The notes beneath the pieces were generated by a model. The model was not told the DNA's origin, made no database searches, and saw only the letters and a list, made by a program, of their open reading frames with translations. A DNA stretch of 50,878 bases from Thermodesulfobacteriota bacterium (GTDB lineage: Bacteria > Desulfobacterota > Anaeroferrophillalia > Anaeroferrophillales > Tharpellaceae): positions 1 to 50,878 of the forward strand of contig JANTFH010000014.1 in NCBI GenBank assembly GCA_024763535.1, written 5' to 3'. Shown piece by piece: positions 7,830 to 23,040 of the stretch (position 1 is its first letter; every line of letters begins with the position of its first letter). The translations under genes and the position numbers were made by a program.

Positions 7830-7920
7830 AGATTTGCACATTTTTTTGGAATTCGTTAGGGTTGGATTATAGCGTCGCCTCTGCATTTTGGTACATTAGT
7901 GCGACTCTCAGACATATCAA

Positions 7921-7950
7921 TTGACATCCCTAAGCAATGTTCTATATATT
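7921..7950 (+). promoter_or_regulatory. Candidate sigma-70 promoter of the glycan island
   Basis: TTGACA (7921-7926) is followed 18 bases later by TATATT (7945-7950); TATATA at 7943 with a 16-base spacer is an alternative. It lies in the 361-base gap between etfA and the first sulfotransferase, about 130 bases before that ATG. The rest of the gap is A+T-rich and I see no other gene in it. Confidence 0.5.
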
Positions 7951-8082
7951 GTTTATGCATCTTACGTTTAAGCTTTGATCCAACTTTAAGTGCAATATCT
8001 TAAAATGTTTAGGGACGCATCATATAGTGTTTTGTAATCCAGCAAATAACATGAGGGTGCAGAAAATGACAGTGCACAGTAA

Positions 8083-8811
8083 ATGATAATAGTAGGAACA
8101 TATCATAAGACCGGCACGGTACTTATGTCCAGTATTTTTAAAGAAGTTGCAAAATACAAAGATTGGAAATTTTATAAAAACACAGAATTTGATCCGAAGG
8201 TTAAAACAGATATCTATTTCGTGAGAAAATCGAATATTGACCTGGAAAAAATTCCACCTGACTGCAAGGGGGTTCATCTTATCAGGAATCCTTATGAAGT
8301 GGTGGTGTCAGGGTACCGCTACCACCTCATAACGCGGGAAAAATGGTGTCGGATACCAAAAAGAGAGCGGTTGGGAGGCAAAACCTACCAGGAATACTTG
8401 AATTCCTTATCCCCTGACGAAGGCATTACGTTTGAAATGATACATGTGGCCTATAGTACCATCAACAGCATGTACCGTTGGGATTATGCCGACGAGCGTT
8501 TCCTCAACCTTCGCCTTGAGGATTTCCTGGAGAATTTTGATAAGGCGCTGGAAAAAACGCTTCGCTTTCTTTCCTTTAGTGAAGCCGATGTCGTTGCACT
8601 GTTGCAACGTTGTCAGAAATTCAAAAAAGGGGTTGCTGTTGACAAGGGGGGGCATATCACCAATAAAAGCAGTAAAGTATATACCTATAGGGAATATTTT
8701 AAGCCGCACCACTATATACTCTTCGATCGGCTTTTCCCAGGAGATTTAATGCAGAAACTCGGTTATACAAAAAAGATGAGTTGGTTAAAAGGGCAACTGT
8801 GGGTAGAATAA
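8083..8811 (+). CDS. PAPS-dependent sulfotransferase domain protein
   Basis: 242 residues, a single sulfotransferase domain. The 5'-phosphosulfate loop is GTYHKTGTVLM (residues 4-14), where Lys and Thr contact the PAPS phosphate. The 3'-phosphate motif is IRNPYEVVVSGYRYH (about 68-82), with the conserved Arg and Ser. The Phe-rich LEDFLENFDKAL stretch near 145 is also typical. It would transfer sulfate from PAPS to a hydroxyl of a carbohydrate or lipid. It is first in a run of sulfotransferase and glycosyltransferase genes, so a glycan acceptor is likely. No signal peptide or membrane segment is seen. The ribosome site is weak. Confidence 0.85.
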   Translation: MIIVGTYHKTGTVLMSSIFKEVAKYKDWKFYKNTEFDPKVKTDIYFVRKSNIDLEKIPPDCKGVHLIRNPYEVVVSGYRYHLITREKWCRIPKRERLGGKTYQEYLNSLSPDEGITFEMIHVAYSTINSMYRWDYADERFLNLRLEDFLENFDKALEKTLRFLSFSEADVVALLQRCQKFKKGVAVDKGGHITNKSSKVYTYREYFKPHHYILFDRLFPGDLMQKLGYTKKMSWLKGQLWVE

Positions 8812-8823
8812 AAGGGAAATAAC

Positions 8824-9624
8824 GTGATCATCTCAAATTCCAAACGGTTTATCTATATTCATATCCATAAAACTGCCGGAACCTCAATCGAGCATGCTTT
8901 TGATCCCAGTTTGCAGTGGAACGATATCATCCTGGGGTCAACGAAGTACGGCGAGGAAATTCAGCATATTTACCGACAGCGCTTTCGCCTTTACAAACAT
9001 TCAACGGCGCAGGAGTGCTATGATGTTGTTGGCGCTGCAGTATGGGATGATTATTTTACTTTTGCTACCGTCCGCAACCCGTACAGTTTGGCGGTATCGG
9101 CCTTCACTTATGCCCAGAAAGTCCTAGACAAGGTAATTACTTCCGGTCGTTACAGTTACGAAAATATTCGCCCGCTCATAAAAAGTGGACAAATGTCAAA
9201 GCGTCGTCTTTGGCACTGGTCACGATTCAGACAACCTAAGAAATCCAACCGGATTTTTCAGTGGCCGGTCATTAAGGCTTTGATGGAAAGTGGCTACCCT
9301 AAGTCCTCATTTGTGGGCTTTTTGCAATCACCTTACGCCTGGGATGACCTTGCACTGAAACCCCAGTGGGACAAACTGGCAGTTAGTCGGGGAGGCACGC
9401 CACGCATTGATCTGAATTGTATTGTTAAAGTGGAAGAGCTGAATCGGCAGTGGCCGGAATTATGTCACAAGCTTAAAATGGACGTCAAACTTCCTCACCT
9501 TAATCAATCATCCAGAGGAACTCCATGGCAGGATTTTTACGACTGCGATGAAGTTGTCGCACTGGTGGAGCACCACTTTACCGCTGATTTTGAAGCTTTT
9601 GGTTATGACCGGTTAAAGATTTAG
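8824..9624 (+). CDS. Sulfotransferase family 2-like protein
   Basis: 266 residues with GTG start (8824), 12 bases after the previous stop. The N-terminus runs RFIYIHIHKTAGTSIEHAF, the phosphosulfate loop of the carbohydrate sulfotransferase family (Sulfotransfer_2 type), and FATVRNPYSLAVSAFTYA (about 78-95) is the 3'-phosphate-binding segment. It probably sulfates a sugar. It differs from the upstream protein in loop type (HKTAGTS against HKTGTVL), so two different acceptors or positions are plausible. Confidence 0.85.
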   Translation: MIISNSKRFIYIHIHKTAGTSIEHAFDPSLQWNDIILGSTKYGEEIQHIYRQRFRLYKHSTAQECYDVVGAAVWDDYFTFATVRNPYSLAVSAFTYAQKVLDKVITSGRYSYENIRPLIKSGQMSKRRLWHWSRFRQPKKSNRIFQWPVIKALMESGYPKSSFVGFLQSPYAWDDLALKPQWDKLAVSRGGTPRIDLNCIVKVEELNRQWPELCHKLKMDVKLPHLNQSSRGTPWQDFYDCDEVVALVEHHFTADFEAFGYDRLKI

Positions 9625-9711
9625 CATCATGAAGCCAGCAGGATTTTAGATCAAAAAACAAGATGAATTTTTACAAGACCTTATCTGTTTCATCCAAAAG
9701 GGAGCAGGATA

Positions 9712-11817
9712 TTGAATCCGATCAAGTTTGTTGTTTATGGCGTGCCGCGCGTTGGCAGCAACTTCTTTATCAGCCAGCTTAATCGTCATCCCGATATTTT
9801 GTGCCATTACGAGATCTTCCACCGTCATGCAATCTATAACGGGTTCGAGGACAAGCCAGAGCGCTCTCATTGGCTGGAAGCGGTTTCGTTGCAGGAACGG
9901 GATGCATCACCAGAAAAGTTTCTGGCAAGACTGTTCGCAGAACATCATGGCTATACCCATATTGGTTACAACCTTTTTCCTGGCCAGAACGATGCGGTGT
10001 TGCAATACAGTATTGCCGATTCATCCCAAAAGAAGGTCATCCTCAAACGAAAAAATATCCTTGATAATTATATTTCCCTTAAAGTAGCGGTAAAAACAGG
10101 GGTTTGGTCTTCAAAAGCTGCCAAAGAGAAAGGGGTTGATGAAAGAATCCTCGACAAACATGTGCGCTTTGAACAAAAGGAATTTGTCCAGCATGTGCGG
10201 AAGGTTAACCTCTTTTACAATAATATAGAAACTAACATATCCTTTAGGCAAAATGAAAGTCTGATTATATACTATGAGGACCTGCTTGAGGACCGACAGG
10301 CGGTATTAAATCAGGTGTACGATTTTCTTGGCGTTGAGCGGATTATGGTATCTGAATCAACGGTTTTTGAAAAACAGAACAAGGAGGGCCTGCGTGAGCT
10401 TGTAAGTAATTACAGTGAATTGATGACTTTTTTATCAGAAGAGTACTATGATTTTTTCCCTTTCCATAGGGGGGAAGCGGCTGTTCTTGCCACAAGCAAA
10501 AACCGGCAAAATGTTGATAGTGTCGAGTGCAAAAAAAAGTTGAACACCCTAATGCCTCAAGATATCCGATACAGGCAGGCGGTAAAGATTGATATCCATA
10601 TCGGCATGGAAAAAACCGGCACATCCTCAATCCAGGCGGCCCTCATGCAGGCCAGAAAGAATTTGTGTGAAGTGGGAATTTTGTTCCCCAAGTCCTTGAA
10701 TATCCCCAATAATACCTACCTGGCAACGGCATTTCAGTCTGAAGATAAAAGTGATACTTTGCGGATTGTAAGCAATGTGGTGGGTAAAGAGTCCGTAGAA
10801 CATTTCAGAAAACGTTTATTGCTGGACTTTGGAGAGGAGCTTGGCAGCTCCGATTGCCTGCGGGTGGTTGTTTCCTCGGAGCATCTTTCTTCAAGGTTGA
10901 CGATGATCGAAGAAATTAAGCGGCTTAAAGAATTTTTTGCCCGCTTTGGTTCTGAAATTTCCATTTACCTCTACCTTCGGCCCCAGGATGAGTTCTGCAT
11001 CAGCCATTACTCCACTAGAATCAAGTTTGTTGATGAAACTGAACCGTTTGTATTCCCCCCACTTGAGACCATCAGGGATGATCTGTTCTATGACCGGCTG
11101 CTGGATCAATGGGTATCTGTGTTTGGGCGTGAGCATGTACATATCCGCACCTATGAACGCACTGCTTTGGCGGGCGCTGATGTTGTCAAAGATTTCTGGC
11201 AGTGGCTGCAACTACCTGAAAATATCCTTCCAAGCGTCAATGAGCGAAATCTCTCCCTAGATGTGAAAAAGCTGGCGTTTATGGGATGTTTCAATAACTA
11301 TGTGCCCCGCTTTATCAATGGAAAGCTCAATCAGATGAGGGGAGATATTGTTATGGCTATGGATGCAATTGAGTCGATGGGGAGGAAAATAGCAGTCAGC
11401 GAAAAGGAAAGAGCCGATTTTTTGGAACTGTTTGAGGAGGGGAACCGAAAAGTGGCCACTGAATACTTTGGGCGGGATTGGTTGTTTACCCCAAGGTTTG
11501 CGAATATGCAGGACCATGAGCAATCAGAGGTGGCGGACGAGACATTAACGGCTGACGATGCCGTGAAGATTTCAGCCGCTTTGTGGCAGTGGTTGCAAGC
11601 AAAACTGATAAAAAACAAACAGCAGATTGCTAATCTCAGAGCTACTATTGCTGACCTTAACGCTAAAAATGAACGGTTTAAGGAGCGAAATGATACTTTG
11701 ACCAGTTCCATCGATGCAGTTGCCCGCTACAGCCTTTTCAGGAACCCATTCAAAAAATTGCACGCCTACAAAATATTGATGAAAAGCTATCGTCATGGCA
11801 AATCGGAGCAACAATGA
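9712..11817 (+). CDS. Two-domain sulfotransferase with coiled-coil tail
   Basis: 701 residues from a TTG start (9712) preceded by GGAGCAGGA. Domain 1 (about 5-255) has a NodH/Stf0-like loop GVPRVGSNFFISQL and the segment VILKRKNILDNYISLK. Domain 2 (about 290-560) has a second loop HIGMEKTGTSSIQ (296-308) and IYLYLRPQDEFCISHYSTR, a sulfotransferase-like family common in polysaccharide clusters. A predicted coiled coil follows (about 610-665), then the tail NPFKKLHAYKILMKSYR (678-694), which recurs in the next two glycosyltransferases. The two catalytic domains suggest double sulfation of one glycan. The gene overlaps the next ATG by 4 bases (ATGA), so translation is coupled. Confidence 0.8.
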   Translation: MNPIKFVVYGVPRVGSNFFISQLNRHPDILCHYEIFHRHAIYNGFEDKPERSHWLEAVSLQERDASPEKFLARLFAEHHGYTHIGYNLFPGQNDAVLQYSIADSSQKKVILKRKNILDNYISLKVAVKTGVWSSKAAKEKGVDERILDKHVRFEQKEFVQHVRKVNLFYNNIETNISFRQNESLIIYYEDLLEDRQAVLNQVYDFLGVERIMVSESTVFEKQNKEGLRELVSNYSELMTFLSEEYYDFFPFHRGEAAVLATSKNRQNVDSVECKKKLNTLMPQDIRYRQAVKIDIHIGMEKTGTSSIQAALMQARKNLCEVGILFPKSLNIPNNTYLATAFQSEDKSDTLRIVSNVVGKESVEHFRKRLLLDFGEELGSSDCLRVVVSSEHLSSRLTMIEEIKRLKEFFARFGSEISIYLYLRPQDEFCISHYSTRIKFVDETEPFVFPPLETIRDDLFYDRLLDQWVSVFGREHVHIRTYERTALAGADVVKDFWQWLQLPENILPSVNERNLSLDVKKLAFMGCFNNYVPRFINGKLNQMRGDIVMAMDAIESMGRKIAVSEKERADFLELFEEGNRKVATEYFGRDWLFTPRFANMQDHEQSEVADETLTADDAVKISAALWQWLQAKLIKNKQQIANLRATIADLNAKNERFKERNDTLTSSIDAVARYSLFRNPFKKLHAYKILMKSYRHGKSEQQ

Positions 11818-13193
11818 ATATCCTGATTTTTTCACCCTCACCGTCACACCCCCAGAATCATGGAAATCGAAAACGGATCTTTATGCTGGCAAAATATCTG
11901 CAGCGGCTTGGGCATCGGATCCATTTTGTTTATTTTGCGAAGGAAGTGATAGCTAGGGAGACATTTGACCGGATGAGCCGGGAGTGGGATACCCTGACTG
12001 TTATAAAACAAACAGATCCCTGTGCTCCCAGCACCAGCGGCTATTCTCTCGACGCCTGGTATCAAAACAACATTCACGAGATTGTCAACGAAATGATTGA
12101 TGTTTTTGATATTGACATGGTGCTGTTGAATTATATCTTTCAGTCCAAGCTGTTCGAATATCTGCCTGATCATGTTCTGAAAGTCATTGATACACACGAT
12201 GCGTTTACGGACCGGTATCTTCTTTATGAGAGTAAAAAAGGCCGTCCCTATACCTGGTTCAGTGTCAGCAAAGAAGACGAAGGGAGGGCAATGGACCGGG
12301 CGGACCTCATAATTGCTATTCAGAATGAGGAAGCAGGCTATTTTTCTACAATTACCCGCACCCCTGTCCAGGTTATCAACCATTTTGAGGACGAGCATAG
12401 GTCTGACCGGAGCTATCGCTTTCTGAAAACTGTTGGTTACATTGGCAGTGGCAATCTCTGCAATGTTGACAGTTTGAACAGTTTTCTGCAAGCTTATTTC
12501 GACCGTCCCAAGGTCAAGGAAGATGTGCGAATCGTCGTGGCAGGGAATATCTGCAGTGCGGTAAAGATGCGCCACGACAACCTGCTCCTGCTGGGTCCCG
12601 TCAAAGACCTGGGGGATTTTTACGGCCAGGTTGATATCATAATCAACCCTCAAACCTTTGGCACGGGGCTTAAAATCAAAAGTGTTGAGGCGCTGTCATA
12701 TGGCGTCCCGATTCTTTCAACGAAAATAGGCTTCGAGGGGGTTGAAAGTCAGCATCCCTATCATCAGCTTGATACACTGGACGAAATAGTGGTGGTCATT
12801 GAACACCTGTGCAATGCACCGGAGAAATTGGCTGATTTGGCAGTACTGAGCCGGGATATTTTCAATCAGTATAAAGATCGCACTAAAGAGGCTATTGCAG
12901 CCCTGCTGAAAAAAGTAGAGCTACGCGAAGAAGCGAAATCATTTCAAGCTCTTCAGCACAAACTGCTCGAAAAAGAAGATATCATTCTCCGCCAGTACCG
13001 CCGGTTTCAAACCGAGGCTTTTTACAAAAATCAAGATAGAGAAATAAATTATAATATGATAATGTCGGAGATTGCTGCAATTACTGAAACAAATACGCTC
13101 AGGATGCCGTTGAAAAAAATTGCTGCATACAAAAAGATGCTGGCCACTTTTCACCGTTTGCGGCAAGAGCAGATAAAGTCATGGAAGGAATGA
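11814..13193 (+). CDS. Glycosyltransferase, GT4-like (paralog 1 of 3)
   Basis: 459 residues. N-terminal MNILIFSPSPSHPQNHGNRKR is a GT-B nucleotide-sugar transferase start with the glycine-containing loop. VIDTHDAFTDRY (about 123-134) and FGTGLKIKSVEALSYGVPILST (about 281-302, the E-x7-E-like donor-binding region) are shared with the next two genes. The C-terminus carries a charged helix, then MPLKKIAAYKKMLATFH, the island's shared tail. No membrane segment is seen. Donor and acceptor sugars are unknown. It is translationally coupled to the upstream two-domain sulfotransferase, so the glycan it builds is probably sulfated. Confidence 0.85.
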   Translation: MNILIFSPSPSHPQNHGNRKRIFMLAKYLQRLGHRIHFVYFAKEVIARETFDRMSREWDTLTVIKQTDPCAPSTSGYSLDAWYQNNIHEIVNEMIDVFDIDMVLLNYIFQSKLFEYLPDHVLKVIDTHDAFTDRYLLYESKKGRPYTWFSVSKEDEGRAMDRADLIIAIQNEEAGYFSTITRTPVQVINHFEDEHRSDRSYRFLKTVGYIGSGNLCNVDSLNSFLQAYFDRPKVKEDVRIVVAGNICSAVKMRHDNLLLLGPVKDLGDFYGQVDIIINPQTFGTGLKIKSVEALSYGVPILSTKIGFEGVESQHPYHQLDTLDEIVVVIEHLCNAPEKLADLAVLSRDIFNQYKDRTKEAIAALLKKVELREEAKSFQALQHKLLEKEDIILRQYRRFQTEAFYKNQDREINYNMIMSEIAAITETNTLRMPLKKIAAYKKMLATFHRLRQEQIKSWKE

Positions 13194-13223
13194 TGTTGTT
13201 TAACGTAAGAGAAGAAGGCTGAA

Positions 13224-14552
13224 TTGAATATTCTCGTTTTTTCCCCCATACCCTCGCATCCACAATTTCATGGTCATCGAAAGCGCATTTTTAACCTGAC
13301 AAAATACCTGCAACAGATGGATCATGTGATCCATTTTATCTATTTCAGCGAAGATGGATTAAAAAACTGCGACTGCGAGGCAATGGCACAAGAGTGGGAG
13401 ACCTTGACCCTGATCGAAAAGACGTCCTTTTATGATCCAATCAATGGGAATTACGGTTTTGACGCGTGGTATCAGGAAAACATTGCCGAAGAGGTCAATC
13501 GCATCGTCGATCTTTTCAATATAGACGTGCTCTGGTTGAATTACGTCTGGCATTCAAGGCTGCTGGAAGATTTGCCGCCGAACGTGCTCAAAGTAATCGA
13601 TACCCATGATAAATTCTCGAATCGCTTTGCACTTTACGGCCGAAATGGAGACAAATCGTATCGTTGGTTCAGTTGTTCGGCAGAGGACGAAGGAAGATAC
13701 CTTGACCGGGCGGATGTGGTAGTGGCGATTCAGGCTGAGGAGGCAGAGTATTTCAGGTCAATTTGCAGCAATGAAGTTGTGACGTTGAATCACATTGAAC
13801 GTAGACATTTACCAAATAAAAAACTTGTTTCCTTGAAACGCATTGGATTTTTGGGGACAGACAACACGATCAATGTTACATCAATCAACAGTTTTTTGAA
13901 GGTATGGTACAATCACTCCAAATATTCAGACAGCATCGAGGTCATTATTGCTGGCGATGCCGGGAAAAAAGTGATCTGCTCACACCAAATGTTGCGATTG
14001 CCGGGACGCATTGATACTCTTGAAGGATTTTATGACCGGGTTGATCTGGTTATTGTCCCACTTGTTTTTGGGACTGGATTAAAAATAAAAAGTGTAGAAG
14101 CGCTGGCATATGGCGTCCCGATTGTTTCAACCGTGGTTGGCTTCGAAGGGATTGGCAGTGATTCCAGGTATCATAATGCGCCAACACCGCATGCCATGGT
14201 CAGCTTGATTGATGAGTTGTATGAACATCCTGCTGATTTACAGGCACTGGGTGAGTTGACTACTGAAATTTTCATCGCTTACCAGCAGCGTTTTGTCGAA
14301 AGTCTCGATGCTATTCTGCATAAAGTAGAACCTTCGACCGTTGACCAGGAAAAAAGCAGCTCGAAAAAAATGATTGGCCTGTACCGGGAACTGCAGCAGT
14401 GCAGGCGAAAGCATCAATTAAGCAACAGCCACGAGTTTGCCAAATTGATGAAGGACCTGTCAGCGCTTTGCAACCTCAAGGCTGCTAAGAATCCGTTGAA
14501 AAAGCTGCGGGCCTATAAACTACTGATGCAAACATATCATGCCTTTAAATGA
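13224..14552 (+). CDS. Glycosyltransferase, GT4-like (paralog 2 of 3)
   Basis: 442 residues from a TTG start preceded by GAAGAAGG. It is closely similar to the upstream protein over its whole length: MNILVFSPIPSHPQFHGHRKR, VIDTHDKFSNRF, WFSCSAEDEGR, FGTGLKIKSVEALAYGVPIVST. The C-terminus ends in KNPLKKLRAYKLLMQTYH, the shared tail. This is a tandem duplication that has diverged, so the two probably add different sugars or linkages. The last 14 bases overlap the next gene. It is cytoplasmic, with no signal or membrane segment. Confidence 0.85.
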   Translation: MNILVFSPIPSHPQFHGHRKRIFNLTKYLQQMDHVIHFIYFSEDGLKNCDCEAMAQEWETLTLIEKTSFYDPINGNYGFDAWYQENIAEEVNRIVDLFNIDVLWLNYVWHSRLLEDLPPNVLKVIDTHDKFSNRFALYGRNGDKSYRWFSCSAEDEGRYLDRADVVVAIQAEEAEYFRSICSNEVVTLNHIERRHLPNKKLVSLKRIGFLGTDNTINVTSINSFLKVWYNHSKYSDSIEVIIAGDAGKKVICSHQMLRLPGRIDTLEGFYDRVDLVIVPLVFGTGLKIKSVEALAYGVPIVSTVVGFEGIGSDSRYHNAPTPHAMVSLIDELYEHPADLQALGELTTEIFIAYQQRFVESLDAILHKVEPSTVDQEKSSSKKMIGLYRELQQCRRKHQLSNSHEFAKLMKDLSALCNLKAAKNPLKKLRAYKLLMQTYHAFK

Positions 14553-15990
14553 GATAGGGATAAAAAAAAGCGGGGAAGATGCCACGCTTCTGGTGACGGA
14601 TATCCCATTTTGGAAAGCTGATCTTGGTAATCGCCAGCGCATCCTTTCCCTGGTCAAGTATCTGCACCAACAATCAATAACCTTTATGGTTTTATACCTT
14701 GGCCGTAACGACTATAGAGATTCGGAAGCGATAGAGGAATTGGAACTTTCCAGTTGCCTGCACTATCTTGATGATACGGTGCTTTCACATGAAGGTATGA
14801 AATCTGTAGCGCCGAAAACAGCAAAGGCGTTGTCGGAGTTTTATGATCATGATGCAAAAGCAAGATTTGATGTTTTCTTGAGTGAACATGCCATCGGCAA
14901 GATCTTGGTGGAGTATATCCATCTTGACTACCTGGTGAGCAACCTGCACCAGCAGTATGTGACAATTATTGACACGCATGATCTTATGAGTCGGCGTGCT
15001 CGTCACTATGAGTTATGCGGAGAGACGCATCATATCATTATCTCGGAAGCAGAGGAAATGGCACTGCTGGATCAGTATGACTATGTGATTGCAATTCAGC
15101 AAAATGAATATGATTCCATGAAATCATGTCTGAAAAACGCAAAGGTGATTATGGTACCGCATGCGGTTGAGCCAGAAGATTCGGCAGAACTGGTGTTTGT
15201 TTCCGGTACCGCACAATGGAAATCGATCGTCTGGTTTATTGAAGAAGTGTGGCCACGGTTTGCGGGAACAGGCATGGTTCTTCATATCTATGGGAATGTC
15301 TGCAAGTATTTAAAAAAATATGTCCGAGTTGATGGTGTTTTTCTCCATGGTACGGTCACGTCACTTGATACAGCCTACGGCCGGGGCGGCATTGCAATCA
15401 ATCCCGTGCAATTTGGGGGAGGCCTTAAAATAAAAAGCGTAGAGGCATTGGCATACGGGTTGCCGTTGGTTGCAACCTCAGAGGGTGTTAATGGATTGGA
15501 AAAAGCGGTGGGTAAAGCCTGCTTGCTGGCAAACACTCGAGAAGAGTGGATTGAAGCCCTTTCGATGCTGTTGTTTTCCAGGCAGCTGCGCACCGCGCTG
15601 TCCTATAACGGGCTTTGTTATGCACATAGGCATTTTATGGGAACAACCTGCTATTCTGAGATTGGTGCAGTCCTTTGCGGCAGGGAAGAGGTTCAGCAGG
15701 TATTGGAGTGCCCGGGTCAATTTGTCGAGACGGAAGGCCTTTCGCGCTTTCTTCACACCCGGCTGCCCGAGTTTATGCAGCGTCTGCAGGCATTGCAGGA
15801 GCGATATATCTCGCGACCGGAAGTCGCTGAACGGTGTCATGTTGAATACATTGGAGAACGGTCGTTTGAACTTTTTAAGCGTTACCAGGACTCCCGTTTG
15901 AGAATGTGGATGCAGGGGCTGAAAAAAGTTCCGCTGCTTGGGAACGCTTTACTTTATTTTAAACGAAAAGTCCTCAAATGGGATATGTAG
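14539..15990 (+). CDS. Glycosyltransferase, GT4-like (paralog 3 of 3)
   Basis: 483 residues starting at ATG 14539, inside the end of the previous gene. The fold markers are the same but more diverged: LGNRQRILSLVKYLHQ, TIIDTHDLMSRRARHY and FGGGLKIKSVEALAYGLPLVAT. It lacks the shared tail of the two upstream proteins and instead ends in a basic, Leu-rich segment (LKKVPLLGNALLYFKRKVLKW) that could be a peripheral membrane anchor. The first 10 residues look non-homologous, so initiation slightly downstream is possible. Function is inferred from the glycosyltransferase motifs and the operon. Confidence 0.8.
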   Translation: MPLNEIGIKKSGEDATLLVTDIPFWKADLGNRQRILSLVKYLHQQSITFMVLYLGRNDYRDSEAIEELELSSCLHYLDDTVLSHEGMKSVAPKTAKALSEFYDHDAKARFDVFLSEHAIGKILVEYIHLDYLVSNLHQQYVTIIDTHDLMSRRARHYELCGETHHIIISEAEEMALLDQYDYVIAIQQNEYDSMKSCLKNAKVIMVPHAVEPEDSAELVFVSGTAQWKSIVWFIEEVWPRFAGTGMVLHIYGNVCKYLKKYVRVDGVFLHGTVTSLDTAYGRGGIAINPVQFGGGLKIKSVEALAYGLPLVATSEGVNGLEKAVGKACLLANTREEWIEALSMLLFSRQLRTALSYNGLCYAHRHFMGTTCYSEIGAVLCGREEVQQVLECPGQFVETEGLSRFLHTRLPEFMQRLQALQERYISRPEVAERCHVEYIGERSFELFKRYQDSRLRMWMQGLKKVPLLGNALLYFKRKVLKWDM

Positions 15991-16003
15991 GCAGAGATCA
16001 GAC

Positions 16004-16987
16004 ATGAAGGGTAAAGGCCAGAGTTGGCAAAAGGTGATCATTACAGCCGGGGGAGAACCACGGAAAGCCGCCGAACATCGTGAGTGGCTCTATCTTTTGT
16101 TGGGTGAGCTAATTGCCAGTGCGCTTAAAGTCCCTGATGTTAAGTGTTTACCGCTTGAAGAAACACTAGGTGATAGTTCCGCGCTTGTCATTGGGTTTGA
16201 ACTCCCTAAAGAAGCCGGGCAGCAACTGGACGCGCGGAAACAGCCCTACTTGTCTCTTGCCATTCATCCTCTGCGTTATATGGATGATATCTTTTTTGCT
16301 TTCCGGACGAACAGTGATGCCATGTTGAGGACCCTGCAGGCGCACGAGGTTAATCCTGTGCTTTGTCAAGCATATGCCAACATGGTTCAAGCCACGGTGC
16401 TGAAGTCAAAAAAAAAGCCTTTGTTGCCACCAGATACCTTGCTGCTTGTCGGTCAGACTGAGAGGGATTTAGTGATTTTTGATGGGGAATCATACCTCTC
16501 TCTGCTTGATTTTATTGACGCAATCGCCCCGCTTGCAGCGACACACCGGCATGTCGTTTTCAAACCGCATCCCTATGCCCGCAATAATCGCATGATGCAT
16601 CGACAGCTTAAAAAGCGGCTTGGAAAAGTGGCGATGACATATGCCAATATCTACCATTTATTGTCACAGCCAACACTTTCGCATGTCTGCGCACTTAACT
16701 CCAGCGTTCTTTATGAGGCGGAAATGTTCATGAAGACGGCTACGTTCCTCTATAAGCCGCCTTTTAATGGGGAGGCCCTCGGTATTTATGATGCGTGGCT
16801 GTCTGGAAGCTTCTGGAGTACACTGCTCTCACCGCATATGGCAACCACTCCATCGGACATTGTGCTGCCTTTTCGGCCAGATCGCCTTCGTATCGCCCTG
16901 AACGATTTCTGGAGCTATGGTGAAGTCAGCGGAAAAATCGTCATGATGGACCTGGTAAAAAGCGCCCTGCGACGCTACCTCAGATAA
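16004..16987 (+). CDS. Capsule polysaccharide KpsS/KpsC-like protein
   Basis: 327 residues from ATG 16004; the reading frame opens earlier (15938) but that start lies deep in the previous gene. HVVFKPHPYARNN (about 184-196) and ALNSSVLYEAEMF (about 229-241) match the conserved KPHP and NSS segments of capsule export/Kdo-transferase proteins (KpsS, KpsC, WcbO). Such proteins start or extend the Kdo linker on a lipid acceptor before export. Sequence outside these motifs is not recognisable, so the family call is moderate. It is followed after 160 bases by an ABC exporter. Confidence 0.6.
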   Translation: MKGKGQSWQKVIITAGGEPRKAAEHREWLYLLLGELIASALKVPDVKCLPLEETLGDSSALVIGFELPKEAGQQLDARKQPYLSLAIHPLRYMDDIFFAFRTNSDAMLRTLQAHEVNPVLCQAYANMVQATVLKSKKKPLLPPDTLLLVGQTERDLVIFDGESYLSLLDFIDAIAPLAATHRHVVFKPHPYARNNRMMHRQLKKRLGKVAMTYANIYHLLSQPTLSHVCALNSSVLYEAEMFMKTATFLYKPPFNGEALGIYDAWLSGSFWSTLLSPHMATTPSDIVLPFRPDRLRIALNDFWSYGEVSGKIVMMDLVKSALRRYLR

Positions 16988-17147
16988 ATACAGGATATTA
17001 TGGTAATGGATCGGCTCTGGCCGGTTTATTGTGGAATCATTGATTTATGGAGTCATGAACCTTTTATATGCCAGTGAAAAACCTCAGCCCTTGGTCAGAT
17101 AATTTATCGATGTTTTTGGAAGCGGTTATTGGTTTTCAAGGAATATT

Positions 17148-18956
17148 ATGAAGTATAATCAACTTGATAAATTGGAATTCAACCTGAAGTCATATCTTCG
17201 CTCAATCCGCTGGTCCATTGCTGCATTGAAAGAGTGCTCACCAAGGCTTGGGATATTCCTTCTTTCTTTCAGTATACTTTCTTCTATTATCCCTATTCTG
17301 TCGACCATCGTTCTTGGTACCCTGATAAGCCATTTTGTGAAAACAAATAATAATACACCAGATGGCCTGATCATATGGCTGGTGCTGGCAATTTTGCTTT
17401 TCTTGACCGGAAGTATTTTGGAAGAGCTGGGGCAATATGTTCGTAATAAGCTCACGGATGACCTTGCCCTTTTTATGCAAAAAAAGTTATATGAGCATGC
17501 AAACCAGCTTCCGCTTTCATTCTTTGAGGATAGTAAATCATTGAATCAGCTGTTTTTGGTTCGCAATGGGAGTGGTGCCTCCAGTGTCCTTGCTCCGGTT
17601 AACAGTGCCGTCAATGTTGCTGTGGGCTTTTTTCAAACTGCTTCATTATTCGGACTCATGGCATGGTATGCTCCATTGCCAGGGATTTTTTTATTAATTG
17701 CGGCAGTGCCGATGTTAGTCTTGCAATGGTATATGGCGAAACAGCAATTCCTGCTTAAGATAAGTACCTCCCAGAGCCGTCGTTGGGGCAGTTATTTTAC
17801 TTCTCTCCTGACTCAACCTAAAACCTTGATCCCGGTCAGAATGTTGGGTTTGACTGATTTGCTGCTGGAACGATTTATAGAAAAAATCCAGAGCATTAAC
17901 CTGGGAAGGAAGAATCTTTATGTAAAACGGGTGAAACTGGCAATCTCAGCTCAAATGTTTTTCTTCCTGGTTTTTGGGGTAATTTTAGTCTGGATGTTTT
18001 CCCAGCGGCATCATGGGATGCTAACCACAAAGGGCCTAGTTATTTTCGGCATCGCCGCTTTTAGGGCAAAAAACTCTATGGCCAAAATTATCGGATCGAC
18101 GACAAAGGCTGTTAACTCATCATATATCGTAAACTTTATTCTCGATTTTTTTGAAACCCCGATTCCTGACTTGCATAAACGGTCTGTCTTTTTGCCGGTG
18201 GACAGTATTAATGCTTCTATCACTTTTGAGCAAGTTTCATTTGCCTATGAGAACACCGAAAGGGATGTCTTAAAAAATATTAGTTTTACATTTAAGGCAG
18301 GGCAAAAAATTGCAATTGTCGGAACTAACGGAGCGGGAAAATCAACTTTAGTTAAATTGCTTTGCCGACTCTACAACCCTGGATCGGGAAAAATATTTAT
18401 CGATGACACAGATCTTGCGACGCTATCTCCTGGCTCTATCAATGAAATGATTTCTATTGTTACCCAGAACCCTATCCGGTTTGAAGGTACGGTTAAGGAA
18501 AATATAGCTTTTGGCAACTGGGGAAAATACAAAAACAATGATGCTGCGGTTTATGAAGCCCTTGAAAAAGCCAAACTTACTGACTTTGTCAGAAAACTGC
18601 CGGATGGTTTAGATACTTTGATAGGCAGGAAATTCGGCAATTATTCCATGTCAGGAGGGCAATGGCAGCGTTTGGCCATTGCCAGAATCCTGACACGATC
18701 AACACCTGTCCTGATTCTTGACGAGCCTACTTCCAACCTTGATTCCATAGCTGAACAGGAGATATTTCAGATGCTTTGCGATCAAAAGCGGAAGCAGACT
18801 GTTATTTTTGTTACGCATCGGTTTTCTACGGTTAAAATGGTTGACCGGATCATGGTTCTTGAAGACGGCTGTTTGGTTGAGGATGGTACTCATGATGAGT
18901 TGATAACACAAAATGGTATTTATACCGCTATGTATCATGCATATCAGGGAGATTAG
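17148..18956 (+). CDS. ABC exporter, fused permease and ATPase
   Basis: 602 residues. An N-terminal membrane domain (about 35-310) has several hydrophobic helices. The ATPase domain follows: Walker A GTNGAGKST near 391-399, signature SMSGGQWQR near 500, Walker B VLILDEPTSNLD near 522 and the switch His in VTHRFST. It is a homodimeric half-transporter of the MsbA/lipid-exporter type. Its place after glycosyltransferases and a KpsS-like gene suggests export of the lipid-linked or sulfated product, but peptide export cannot be excluded. The gene is more A+T-rich than those of the flanking operons. I see no terminator or clear promoter in the 160 bases upstream. Confidence 0.88.
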   Translation: MKYNQLDKLEFNLKSYLRSIRWSIAALKECSPRLGIFLLSFSILSSIIPILSTIVLGTLISHFVKTNNNTPDGLIIWLVLAILLFLTGSILEELGQYVRNKLTDDLALFMQKKLYEHANQLPLSFFEDSKSLNQLFLVRNGSGASSVLAPVNSAVNVAVGFFQTASLFGLMAWYAPLPGIFLLIAAVPMLVLQWYMAKQQFLLKISTSQSRRWGSYFTSLLTQPKTLIPVRMLGLTDLLLERFIEKIQSINLGRKNLYVKRVKLAISAQMFFFLVFGVILVWMFSQRHHGMLTTKGLVIFGIAAFRAKNSMAKIIGSTTKAVNSSYIVNFILDFFETPIPDLHKRSVFLPVDSINASITFEQVSFAYENTERDVLKNISFTFKAGQKIAIVGTNGAGKSTLVKLLCRLYNPGSGKIFIDDTDLATLSPGSINEMISIVTQNPIRFEGTVKENIAFGNWGKYKNNDAAVYEALEKAKLTDFVRKLPDGLDTLIGRKFGNYSMSGGQWQRLAIARILTRSTPVLILDEPTSNLDSIAEQEIFQMLCDQKRKQTVIFVTHRFSTVKMVDRIMVLEDGCLVEDGTHDELITQNGIYTAMYHAYQGD

Positions 18957-19083
18957 AAAAAACAAACAACCATTGACAATTCATCAAATCATCGAAAAAA
19001 TAGTCTTTCAATATTAATTAATCAGAGGATGCTGTATTTTATTAGCCTTTCTGTAAATTTGTTACTAGTTTCAGGGAGATAAG

Positions 19084-19665
19084 ATGCCACTGACTTTTCA
19101 AACGATAAACCATGGTCGTATTGCTTTCGGTTTTTTTAATATTGAATCGGATATGTTGCTTTTACAGCACTGCTTTTTCTTCGCGGAGGCTTTCTGCCAT
19201 TATATATCAACCTGTGCCGCCTATGATATATGGGACCCGCTTGAAAGATTTTCGGTTTATGAAATAACCGACCCGGAGGATGTCGGGGATCTGATGGGGG
19301 CCATAAATGGTATTCGCTATACCGGTTTTATCGGAGATACTTACCGCAAATTTCCTTTTCCGGACAATCCACTTCACTTTAAACAGAATCCTCTCGGTTA
19401 CAAATCACAGGATACTTTCAGGGAGATGATCACTCCCTACGCGCAAATGATTGAGATCCCATTTCTAAGATTGCAAAACCAAAATGTTCGCATTGGGGAT
19501 TATATTTTTGACCTTAATAACTTCCATGAGTTATTGCGTTATGTCGAACGGGGCGGTTTTCCGGGTTGGCTGAATAACCTGATACCGGAGTATGTAGACT
19601 TTATGAAAAAAGCAATTAACGGCAGTACAAATAACATCTTTTCCGGTCTGAAATTCGATACTTAA
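19084..19665 (+). CDS. Uncharacterised 193-residue protein
   Basis: I do not recognise this family. The reading frame is clean, with GGGAGATAAG just before the ATG. The protein is soluble-looking, rich in aromatic residues (Phe, Tyr, Trp), with no signal peptide, membrane helix or Cys motif. Notable segments are HCFFFAEAFCHYIS (about 30-43), FIGDTYRKFPFPDNPLHFKQNP (about 80-101) and a C-terminal helix-rich part (ELLRYVERGGFPGWLNNLIPEYVDFMKKAI). It lies between an ABC exporter and a glycosyltransferase on the same strand, so a part in glycan assembly or export is a guess from context. Confidence 0.65.
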   Translation: MPLTFQTINHGRIAFGFFNIESDMLLLQHCFFFAEAFCHYISTCAAYDIWDPLERFSVYEITDPEDVGDLMGAINGIRYTGFIGDTYRKFPFPDNPLHFKQNPLGYKSQDTFREMITPYAQMIEIPFLRLQNQNVRIGDYIFDLNNFHELLRYVERGGFPGWLNNLIPEYVDFMKKAINGSTNNIFSGLKFDT

Positions 19666-19699
19666 CCGATATCATGAAATCTCTTGAGAATTTATTTTA

Positions 19700-20842
19700 A
19701 TGAAAATATTAATTGATGGAAGCTCGCTCTTAAAATCATTAACCGGGGTTGGATACTATACTTCCCAATTTGCAAAAAATCTTATTGGTTCAGGAAATGA
19801 TGTAACTTTTCATTATACCTGGTTCTGGAGTTCAAAACTAAGAGATAAGCCTTCGAAAAGCTACTCTAAGTTTGTTGATCTGGTAAAAGAATATATTCCC
19901 AAACCCTATCTATTAGTTCGCTGGATCAGAGCGATAGCTTTCAATTTGCAGATAGTTATAGAAGAACCGGATCTGATTTTTGAACCTAATTATATCTCCC
20001 CTCCAATAATCGGTGTAATTCCCACGGTCGTCACCGTGCATGATTTATCTCACGTTCGTTTTCCCGAATTCCATCCCGAAGGGCGGGTTCAATACCTAAA
20101 TAGATTTCTGGTACAGAATTTGATGAATGCCAAGAGAATTATAGCCGTCTCTGAGTTTACTAAAAGAGAACTGATAGATTTGAAAATTGTTACGGAAGAG
20201 AAAATTGAGGTTATCTATAATGGCGTCTCACACGAGTTCAGACCATACCCTGAAAGAGAGGTTGAAAAAACCCTTTCTGATTATAACCTTAAATTTAAAG
20301 AGTTTATCCTGACGATCGGGACACTGGAGCCCAGGAAGAATTTCCTTACACTTTTAGAGGCTTATGAAAAGCTTTTGAAAAAAGGCTATAATATCCCGAA
20401 ATTGATTGTTGTCGGGATTAGAGGGTGGAATTTAGAACGTATTGAAGGTAGTTTGAAAAGAGCAATGAATAACCAGCAAATTGAGTTTCTTGGATATGTT
20501 GATGATGATGCGCTTCGACATATCTATGCTGCTGCTAAATTCTTTATTTTCCCATCTTATTATGAAGGTTTTGGCCTTCCTCCACTGGAAGCGATGGCTT
20601 CCGGAACTCCGGTTATCTCCTCAAATACATCTTCTCTTCCTGAGGTTGTTGGAGAAGCCGGGATTCTGGTAGATCCCGGCAATCCGGAGGAACTATGCCA
20701 AAGTATGGAAATGTTAAATGAAGATAGTTCTTTAAGAGCCGTTTTGATCGAAAAAGGGTTGGAGCAGAGTAAAAAATTTTCCTGGGAAAAGAGTGCTGAT
20801 AAGCTTAATTCTCTTTTCAGAGAGGTTTCCGAACAGGGGTAG
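19700..20842 (+). CDS. GT4 family glycosyltransferase
   Basis: 380 residues. It starts MKILIDGSSLLKSLTGVGYYT with the GVG loop of the GT-B fold. TVHDLSHVRFPEFHP, LTIGTLEPRKNFLTLLEAYE (about 198-217) and FPSYYEGFGLPPLEAMASGTPVI (about 285-307, the EGFGLPPLE donor site) place it in the mannosyltransferase-like GT4 branch. It is not a close paralog of the three upstream transferases. It is the last gene of the island on + and ends against a remnant on the opposite strand. Donor sugar is not known. Confidence 0.9.
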   Translation: MKILIDGSSLLKSLTGVGYYTSQFAKNLIGSGNDVTFHYTWFWSSKLRDKPSKSYSKFVDLVKEYIPKPYLLVRWIRAIAFNLQIVIEEPDLIFEPNYISPPIIGVIPTVVTVHDLSHVRFPEFHPEGRVQYLNRFLVQNLMNAKRIIAVSEFTKRELIDLKIVTEEKIEVIYNGVSHEFRPYPEREVEKTLSDYNLKFKEFILTIGTLEPRKNFLTLLEAYEKLLKKGYNIPKLIVVGIRGWNLERIEGSLKRAMNNQQIEFLGYVDDDALRHIYAAAKFFIFPSYYEGFGLPPLEAMASGTPVISSNTSSLPEVVGEAGILVDPGNPEELCQSMEMLNEDSSLRAVLIEKGLEQSKKFSWEKSADKLNSLFREVSEQG

Positions 20843-20977
20843 CAGCCGAATGAAGCATAGTCAAACTGCTCAATATCGGTTTCCGCGGGCCCGCCAGTGT
20901 TGCCGGTAGATAACAGCTTTTTCCGGCGGTAACAAAGCTGTTTCTAAAATCAGTTTCTGAGTAGGATCCGGTAGCAT
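20825..20977 (-). pseudogene. Frameshifted 5' remnant of a nucleotidyltransferase-like gene
   Basis: Read on the minus strand just after the ABC exporter, ATG at 20977 opens MLPDPTQKLILETALLPP and continues EKAVIYRQHWRARGN. One frame change then gives DIEQFDYASF, and a second, explained by loss of a single C, gives RLLPLFGNL. Joined, these resemble the N-terminus of uncharacterised nucleotidyltransferases (NTP_transf_5 type), which have a conserved S-x-RLLPL-x-x-x-NL pattern. The remnant stops where the glycosyltransferase on the other strand ends. I infer a decayed gene that once followed the exporter. The family name is from memory of the pattern. Confidence 0.45.
20912..20942. repeat. 9-bp inverted repeat between convergent genes
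   Basis: AACAGCTTT (20912-20920) is the exact complement of AAAGCTGTT (20934-20942), with a 13-base loop. It lies between the convergent glycosyltransferase and ABC exporter genes. No good T-run follows on either strand, so it is at best a weak terminator. It also lies inside the nucleotidyltransferase-like remnant. Confidence 0.4.
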
Positions 20978-20990
20978 GAGGGATTTTATT

Positions 20991-22637
20991 TCATATTGAT
21001 TCCTGAATACCTGCGATTGTAATAACCTGGTCACAACAGTTTATTACCCTGGGATCATGCGAAGCAATACAGATACTCCCGGAAAAATTTTCTGAGTGAA
21101 GCATATTAAGCAGACGCTGCATTACTTGATAGTCGAGATGATTGGTCGGTTCATCTAAAAGTAGCAGTGCCGGCTTGCGAAGTAAAGCCCGACTTATAGC
21201 CAGACTCTGTCGCTGTCCCCCCGAAAGCTGCAATCCATTTTCTCCAATCAGGCAGTCAAGCTGTTGTGGTAGAGTCTCTATCCAATACCAGGCAGATGTC
21301 CAGTCCAGAACCTTATGCAGCCAGTTGTGATCGATTTCAGCTATGCCATAAATAAGATTTTCTTTGAGGGTCCCGTCAAAAAAGATCGGATTTTGGGGTA
21401 CCAGTGCAATCTGATGTCGCAGGTTTTCCATGTCCAGATCATTATAGGCTGTGCTATCAGCTGTAAGGTGCCCCGATTGGGGGTGTAGAATTCCGAAAAT
21501 CAAGTTAAGCAGAGTCGATTTCCCGCTGCCGTTAGGGCCGGTCAGACCGGTTACTGAAGCCTTGTTGATTGTCAGGGAGAAGTCTTTAAAAATAGGTTTT
21601 TTATTTGGAAATGCGAAAGAGAGATGATGACAACCAAGCTCTCCCTGAAAAACAATTCTTTCTGTTCCACGGTAAAAATTGTCCGGCTGCATTTCGGAAA
21701 ATAACTGCAGACGTTTCAGAGATTCACGGCCGCTGACATATTGAGGCACCGCCATAGAGAAAGTTCTAAGTTGCGTTTTCAGGATCATTACTGCGATATA
21801 AAAGGAGGCCAGTTCCCCTACTGCCAGTTTGCCGTTTTGAACGGCGAATCCACCACCTAAAAGGATGACAATCGTGGCGATAATTACCAGCAGATCCTGT
21901 CCTTGGGTATAAGCTGTGTTCATCAGGGCCATTGATTGACTGCTGGATTGTAATTTTCGAGTATTTCGGTGTTGTCGTTCCAACTCAAGCTTTCTAGCAT
22001 TTTGATGCAGCGTTAATTCAAACATACTGAGAATAAACCGAACACCACGGTTGAAACTCTCAAAGCTGTTGTGAAATATTTTTATTCGTCTCTGAAGATG
22101 AATCCATAGATACCGGTTGAACAGATAAAACAGAGGAACAGTTATTAAAAGTAGCAGGGTTAAACCAGGACTCAGAAAAAACAGTAAAATGATCAGAGCT
22201 CCGGCTGCCAGAGCCCCGGGAAGAAGGTTGATGGCCAGGGCATTCAGCATGATATCGACCCTTTCAGTGTCATCAATAATGCGCGAGTGAACAACCCCGC
22301 GATTCAAACCGGCATATTGTTCGTATGAGCCGAAAAGCAGACGTTTAATCAGGTCATTGCGTAACCGGCATATAACCTCTTTGGTGGCGTTCAGGATGAA
22401 CCATCTTGAAAATAATATCAGGACTACGGCCAGCAAATTGACACCGATTATTTCAGTTCCGATTATGAGTAAAGCCCACCAGTCCTGTTTCGGTAAAACC
22501 GAATCGACCGCGACCCGAAAGAGGTATGGTATTAATAACAACACAGCAATACTTATCAAGGTAAGCAGTGTGCCCAGACAGAGTTTCAGCCTCTGTTCAC
22601 GCCAGCAGCGTTTTATCAGGTTTTGTTCAAAGTTCAT
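20991..22637 (-). CDS. ABC exporter, fused permease and ATPase
   Basis: 548 residues from ATG 22637; a TTG one codon earlier is possible. An N-terminal membrane domain of about six helices (20-300) precedes an ATPase domain with Walker A GPNGSGKST near 369, signature LQLSGGQRQS near 470 and Walker B ALLLLDEPTNHLD near 490; the switch His is in IASHDPR. The linker and ATPase are shorter than in most MsbA-like proteins. It is transcribed against the glycan island and is followed by a decayed nucleotidyltransferase-like gene, so its original operon is broken. Substrate is unknown (lipid, glycan or peptide). Confidence 0.87.
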   Translation of the reverse strand: MNFEQNLIKRCWREQRLKLCLGTLLTLISIAVLLLIPYLFRVAVDSVLPKQDWWALLIIGTEIIGVNLLAVVLILFSRWFILNATKEVICRLRNDLIKRLLFGSYEQYAGLNRGVVHSRIIDDTERVDIMLNALAINLLPGALAAGALIILLFFLSPGLTLLLLITVPLFYLFNRYLWIHLQRRIKIFHNSFESFNRGVRFILSMFELTLHQNARKLELERQHRNTRKLQSSSQSMALMNTAYTQGQDLLVIIATIVILLGGGFAVQNGKLAVGELASFYIAVMILKTQLRTFSMAVPQYVSGRESLKRLQLFSEMQPDNFYRGTERIVFQGELGCHHLSFAFPNKKPIFKDFSLTINKASVTGLTGPNGSGKSTLLNLIFGILHPQSGHLTADSTAYNDLDMENLRHQIALVPQNPIFFDGTLKENLIYGIAEIDHNWLHKVLDWTSAWYWIETLPQQLDCLIGENGLQLSGGQRQSLAISRALLRKPALLLLDEPTNHLDYQVMQRLLNMLHSENFSGSICIASHDPRVINCCDQVITIAGIQESI

Positions 22638-23001
22638 CAATTTACGCCGCCGCTCAAGCGCGGCTTTGAGAGTATCGAAATAGCAACTGTACTACGGGGC
22701 CGCCTGCCGGCCTGATTTGTTGTTTATAAATACGTAGTTAAACAGTATATAGTATATAGGGTATTTTGGCTTAACCGATCTTAAGTAAAGAGCTTAAGCC
22801 GACACGACCTTCTATGGCTTTCCAGATTACGTGAAGGAGCTGCAAAAGGAATAGTGATTTCTGATAGGCATTGTCCGGTATTAACCTGAGAATTATTCGG
22901 TTCATGAGTGAATGCTAAACAATGCTCGGTACCATATGCTGTTATTTGAGTGCAGTTCTATCATGTTTATTGGATTTAGTTCAATGAAAGTTTTGGTTTG
23001 A
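22638..23001. other. Non-coding stretch upstream of the divergent ABC exporter
   Basis: The gap between the divergent exporter and the acyl-CoA dehydrogenase runs to 23160. In this part I see no convincing gene. A GGCTTAA/TTAAGCC pair (22768-22774 and 22794-22800) and a TATATAGTATATAG run near 22747 are the only visible structure; promoters for the minus-strand exporter may lie here. Confidence 0.4.
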
Positions 23002-23040
23002 GTATAGAAAAAAAATATTTTTCATATTTTTTTTCTATAC
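23002..23040. repeat. Perfect 17-bp A+T-rich palindrome
   Basis: GTATAG, eight A and TAT (23002-23018) are mirrored exactly by ATA, eight T and CTATAC (23024-23040), around a 5-base spacer. It ends 33 bases before the candidate -35 box of the acyl-CoA dehydrogenase operon. It may be a binding site for a dimeric regulator or a terminator for read-through. Confidence 0.75.

Follow-up and report, generated by a model that had tools for sequence, protein, structure and literature searches.

An acquired gene cassette probably specifying a multiply sulfated, Kdo-containing glycan in a Thermodesulfobacteriota bacterium

Gene Content of the Cassette

Eight contiguous genes at positions 8083–18956 of the DNA analyzed here (the window, 50,878 nucleotides from a Thermodesulfobacteriota bacterium) probably form an acquired cassette. 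Its product would be a glycan or glycolipid that is multiply sulfated and contains the acidic sugar Kdo, with structure, carrier, and export inferred. The co-occurrence of four sulfotransferase domains and four glycosyltransferases in one operon is best read as pointing to a sulfated glycan product. All eight genes lie on the forward strand, and the first seven, from the sulfotransferase gene ST1 to the GT140 gene, are spaced by −14 to +87 bp; a gap of 160 bp separates the GT140 gene from the transporter gene, ABC1. Pfam backs three sulfotransferase genes, three GT4-type glycosyltransferase genes, and one ABC half transporter gene. ST2 starts with GTG, and ST3 and GT2 start with TTG. A preliminary description, made from the sequence alone, had proposed contiguous and mostly coupled genes, several GTG or TTG starts, three paralogous glycosyltransferases, and four sulfotransferase catalytic domains encoded by three genes, and on these points our analyses agree with it.

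Insertion Site and Acquisition

The cassette is part of a 15.2-kb insert (7836–23040, both edges approximate) delimited by empty sites and composition and located after the etfA terminator and ahead of the DNA upstream of an acyl-CoA dehydrogenase gene, the flanking genes being members of an acyl-CoA metabolism cluster. The preliminary description had ended the module at 18956; the atypical DNA continues to about 23040. The distance from etfA to the mutase gene is ~1.5–1.7 kb in the congeners G003, G005, and G001, with the acyl-CoA dehydrogenase gene in between. DNA alignment identifies an empty site, in which the end of etfA is followed after about 110–130 bp by the conserved dehydrogenase upstream region, in G003, G005, G007, and a paralogous contig of the same genome (C57). 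The latter (L057) carries a second, uninterrupted etfA with the beginning of an acyl-CoA dehydrogenase gene, with ~79% DNA identity to the window copy. Because G001 has a short extra stretch at this site, and G011 and G012 have different sequence and contig ends there, the intergenic site looks variable within the genus. Other genes lie upstream of the dehydrogenase gene in G004, G010, and G012.

The composition of the insert is also aberrant. The GC content of the cassette is 44.4% (43–44% for the insert), compared with a mean of 50.7% (SD 1.9), and none of 202 windows of the same length (10.9 kb), taken from stretches totaling 386 kb of the 2.6-Mb genome, is as low. The tetranucleotide distance is 0.28, beyond both the background mean (0.115) and maximum (0.212). 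The A+T-richness noted in the preliminary description is confirmed against this background, no sampled stretch of which is as extreme in composition. No tRNA was recognized at the insertion, the Pfam matches of the insert include neither an integrase nor a transposase, and close homologs of GT1 or the GT140 protein are absent from the genus. Together, the empty site in congeners, the aberrant composition, and the lack of such homologs strongly support the horizontal acquisition that had been proposed.

The insert could instead be an assembly chimera, foreign to the organism: the draft genome comprises 126 contigs, the composition deviates strongly, and the edges carry neither integrase nor transposase. 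This would, however, need two false joins, one falling just after a terminator and the other just before a promoter region, and the different sequence and contig ends in other congeners are as expected of a variable site. We regard a chimera as very improbable.

Three Sulfotransferase Genes Encode Four Sulfotransferase Domains

ST1 (8083–8811) matches PF00685 with 31 bits, and ST2 (8824–9624) matches PF03567, sulfotransferase family 2, with 32.4 bits, both above the cut-off; the former has the motifs HKTGT (8104–8118) and RNPYEVVVS (8284–8310), and the latter HKTAGT (8866–8883) and RNPYSLAVS (9073–9099). ST3 (9712–11817; 701 residues) is a double sulfotransferase with a C-terminal tail and two P-loops (9739–9759 and 10606–10629). 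Its N-terminal domain matches PF13469/PF09037 (34.3 bits, above the cut-off) and resembles the NodH-type sulfotransferase of structure 9vki over 168 residues (E = 1.8e-15). Unlike that protein, ST3 is fused to a second sulfotransferase-like domain (residues ~290–597) and to the tail. The second domain has no Pfam match, and its homologs, found on plasmids only, are stand-alone proteins of Cereibacter, Paracoccus, and Gloeothece. Because it has a P-loop of its own (MEKTGTSS) and separate plasmid homologs, the three genes are taken to encode four sulfotransferase domains, and both PAPS-binding motifs can be read in all four. ST3 has no phage match.

The three family scores are modest, and ST1 and ST2 match no solved structure, as might be the case if these sulfotransferase-like proteins used unrelated acceptors or were inactive, leaving the glycan unsulfated. 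Arguing against this are the presence of both PAPS-binding motifs in every domain, the packing of the sulfotransferase genes with glycosyltransferase genes in one operon, and the tail common to one sulfotransferase and two glycosyltransferases, and we consider an unsulfated product improbable.

A CysN–CysC fusion for PAPS synthesis is encoded elsewhere in the genome (contig C17). Further sulfotransferase-like genes are present on contigs C61, C64, and C80 (L001, L002, and L009), and CysNC is therefore not evidence for the cassette alone; that it also serves these other sulfotransferases counts against the sulfated-glycan reading. The C61 gene adjoins an O-antigen-type ABC exporter and glycosyltransferase genes, on another compositionally deviating stretch.

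ST2 is 35% identical to a sulfotransferase encoded on a Gloeothece plasmid. On a plasmid of Gloeothece citriformis (L065, 11992–13789), relatives of ST2 and of the second domain of ST3 adjoin each other, next to glycosyltransferase genes and a nonribosomal peptide synthetase gene; the locus may specify a sulfated glycolipid or glycopeptide.

GT4-Type Glycosyltransferases and a Shared C-Terminal Tail

GT1 (11814–13193; PF13692) and GT2 (13224–14552) are tandem paralogs with 43% identity, and GT3 (14539–15990) is ~28% identical to both. GT1 is 32–36% identical to plasmid-encoded glycosyltransferases, and the other 394 genomes of the phylum contain no match to it at E ≤ 1e-25. Two scans of a named genome collection, one using GT2 and the other a GT1/GT2 profile, yielded no confirmed relative, so that the named hosts of relatives come from plasmids only.

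The last 80–100 residues of ST3 (11521–11814), GT1 (12930–13172), and GT2 (14343–14552) are alike. Against a profile built from the tails of GT1 and GT2, ST3 scores 28 bits, and the highest score among 2000 shuffles is 11 bits. A three-sequence profile recovered these three genes, with no credible hit in 296 further genomes of the phylum, and a search of plasmids did not find the tail; the GT1-type homologs of Methylomagnum and Niveispirillum stop before it. A weak match in G264, antisense to a ribH-like gene, was attributed to chance, and the proposal of an amphipathic helix was dropped, the hydrophobic moment not exceeding that of shuffled sequences. The resemblance suggests that the tail is a common docking or localization module for the three proteins. 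A bolder proposal, which we put forward only tentatively and consider rather unlikely, is that ST3, GT1, and GT2 are joined or membrane-held by their tails in a compact synthase–sulfation assembly that would make a sulfated Kdo-containing glycan with sulfation as an integral part of chain assembly. The occurrence of one tail on a sulfotransferase and two glycosyltransferases makes the coupling of sulfation to assembly a testable idea.

A Stand-Alone GT140 Protein

The gene at 16004–16987, for which ATG 16004 rather than TTG 15938 is the most likely start, is predicted to encode a retaining Kdo transferase of family GT140, with CMP-Kdo as the likely donor. This family was founded on KrkA of Escherichia coli K13, part of a capsule polymerase, and was described in 2026 (PMC12887879), beyond which our search of the literature on GT140 and Kdo found nothing. 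The protein matches the GT140 domain of KrkA (9yfx) over residues 58–308 (phmmer E = 2.2e-32). Its motifs GFE (16193–16201), HPLRYMDD (16265–16288), GQTERD (16451–16468), and KPHP (16562–16573) align with KrkA and, with QTERD taken from the third, are invariant in six plasmid homologs. Equivalents are present of the KrkA nucleophile Asp193, the carboxylate-binding Gln189, the general base Glu102, Arg127, and the CMP-binding His227. KdsB, for CMP-Kdo, is encoded on contig C38. The preliminary description had called this protein KpsS/KpsC-like, an identity that we reject: Capsule_synth (PF05159) scores 13.3 bits against a cut-off of 20, and the sequence instead places the protein with KrkA. A polysialyltransferase identity was likewise rejected, the Pfam score lying below the cut-off, although the weak score fits the structural kinship reported between KrkA and a GT38 polysialyltransferase (PMC12887879). 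A single-sequence fold of the protein was set aside (pLDDT 46).

The cassette protein differs from KrkA in standing alone rather than being fused to ribosyltransferase modules, and in being encoded among sulfotransferases. In addition, its N-terminal part is short and diverged and does not align with KrkA; from an alignment of homologs, His occupies the likely position of the acceptor-contacting Asn21. The acceptor therefore probably differs from that of KrkA, and this diverged N terminus, apparently without Asn21, counts against the preferred reading. Asn21 bears on the choice of acceptor and is no part of what defines the family.

A search of 395 genomes of the phylum located GT140 in two, one of them that of the window. 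A plasmid search returned ten records, from which five distinct loci outside Rhizobium were examined, an Escherichia fergusonii record being left out. In all five of these alphaproteobacterial loci (L016–L018, L033, and L034), a GT3-type gene lies beside GT140 or within one gene of it; in Pseudoroseomonas, it encodes a 770-residue GT1-type/GT3-type fusion protein, one gene from GT140. Sulfotransferase genes occur within about 11 kb of GT140 in four of the five (Roseovarius, Sulfitobacter, Pseudosulfitobacter, and Palleronia), and Kdo-synthesis genes (kdsA and a cytidylyltransferase gene) occur near it in Palleronia and Pseudosulfitobacter. On two Rhizobium plasmids, GT140 has no recognized glycan neighbors. 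The gene-neighborhood search that the preliminary description had suggested thus recovers the pairing of GT3-type and GT140 genes but not the ST1–ST2–ST3 order, and the plasmid loci likewise lack the tandem of tailed GT1 and GT2 and a downstream ABC1. Sulfotransferases are common on such plasmids, which counts against the reading of the cassette that we prefer. In three Roseobacter plasmids, a protein of ~255 residues with no Pfam match and no counterpart in the window is encoded just upstream of the GT3-type/GT140 pair (L017, 12726–13535; L033, 7744–8508; L034, 7039–7809), with 45–68% mutual identity.

Type I secretion genes or genes for calcium-binding proteins are found near GT140 in the Roseovarius, Sulfitobacter, and Pseudosulfitobacter loci. 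These neighbors would suit a protein-glycosylation set whose glycan is attached to a secreted protein, but they may be unrelated, and no secreted repeat protein, adaptor protein, or oligosaccharyltransferase was recognized in the window. Such a role for the cassette appears unlikely to us, markedly so.

The Transporter and the Nature of the Product

ABC1 (17148–18956) has the ABC_membrane and ABC_tran domains (PF00664 and PF00005), and its structural matches are MsbA and ABCB1. The ABC exporter of the preliminary description is therefore present as a gene, but it encodes an ABCB/MsbA-type half transporter and putative flippase, 160 bp downstream of its neighbor, and not KpsMT. Neither a KpsM/KpsT ABC-2 exporter nor KpsD/KpsE was found, and Pfam revealed no other recognized export gene in the insert, the Wzx/Wzy type included. 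An apparent link of ABC1 to the Gloeothece loci was dropped, Priestia transporters scoring higher. That ABC1 is generic, set apart by the gap, and without a specific link to the cassette counts against the preferred reading, as does the fact that no polymerase, initiating transferase, outer-membrane exporter, or nucleotide-sugar genes were recognized in the insert.

An alternative is that no free polymer is made and that the cassette instead decorates a glycolipid, for example the LPS core, with a short branch that is sulfated and bears Kdo, ABC1 then acting in the manner of MsbA. In its favor, the N-terminal domain of ST3 resembles NodH, annotated as an LPS sulfotransferase, ABC1 is MsbA-like, and polymerase and capsule-export genes were not recognized in the insert. 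The likeness to NodH is limited, however, to part of one domain, and the founder of GT140 is a component of a capsule polymerase (PMC12887879). We judge this alternative possible but doubtful.

Under the reading that we prefer, in which the product is a multiply sulfated glycan or glycolipid that contains Kdo, the cassette would operate as follows. In the cytoplasm, GT1, GT2, and GT3 would use nucleotide sugars to build a short chain or repeat, and the GT140 enzyme, working with GT3, would add β-Kdo from CMP-Kdo by a retaining, double-displacement mechanism. ST1, ST2, and both domains of ST3 would transfer sulfate from PAPS to several positions of the product, and the tail may keep ST3, GT1, and GT2 in one place, such that sulfation accompanies assembly. 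ABC1 would probably flip the carrier-linked product across the inner membrane, on its way to a presumed location at the cell surface. In favor of this reading are the empty site and the deviating composition, the resemblance of the GT140 protein to KrkA with its conserved residues, the GT3-type and sulfotransferase genes around GT140 on plasmids, the Kdo-synthesis genes in two of those loci, the CysNC and KdsB genes of the genome, and the shared tail.

Relation to Known Sulfated Clusters

The preliminary description had called the module undescribed. This is fair for the gene combination, but as a kind, sulfated-polysaccharide clusters are already known, with sulfated capsule clusters in Vibrio sp. 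KMM 8419 (PMC11641403) and Cobetia marina KMM 1449 (PMC11766843). In these clusters, as in the cassette, one locus unites glycosyltransferases with sulfotransferases and a transporter, PAPS being supplied as well, and an atypical GC content, as here, is reported for the Vibrio locus (PMC11641403). They differ in comprising about 70–80 genes, with Kps-type ABC export and nucleotide-sugar and PAPS genes (PMC11641403, PMC11766843), whereas the cassette has eight genes, an ABCB-type transporter, GT140, and the shared tail. The GT140 family has carried that name only since 2026, when it was defined on a capsule polymerase of E. coli. Its presence in unrelated bacteria as a stand-alone protein, repeatedly with a GT4-type partner and with sulfotransferases, offers a route to enzymes that may make sulfated Kdo-bearing glycans.

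Remainder of the Insert

Searches of phage and defense libraries returned nothing specific to the cassette. Downstream of ABC1, a 193-residue protein encoded at 19084–19665 has no Pfam, NCBIfam, or PHROGs match. Among 297 genomes of the phylum, 37 have a member of its family, located elsewhere in the genome and with 63–73% identity in the genus, and short stretches from seven of these genomes contain no island neighbor genes beside it. The gene is therefore probably not part of the cassette; a single-sequence fold was set aside (pLDDT 33). The insert also contains a glycosyltransferase gene, GT4 (19700–20842, forward strand; PF00534), and a second ABC half transporter gene, ABC2 (20991–22640, reverse strand), the links of both to the cassette being uncertain. 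A relative of ABC2 with 54% identity is present in 1 of 98 other genomes (G015, L106), where it sits within a packed gene run.
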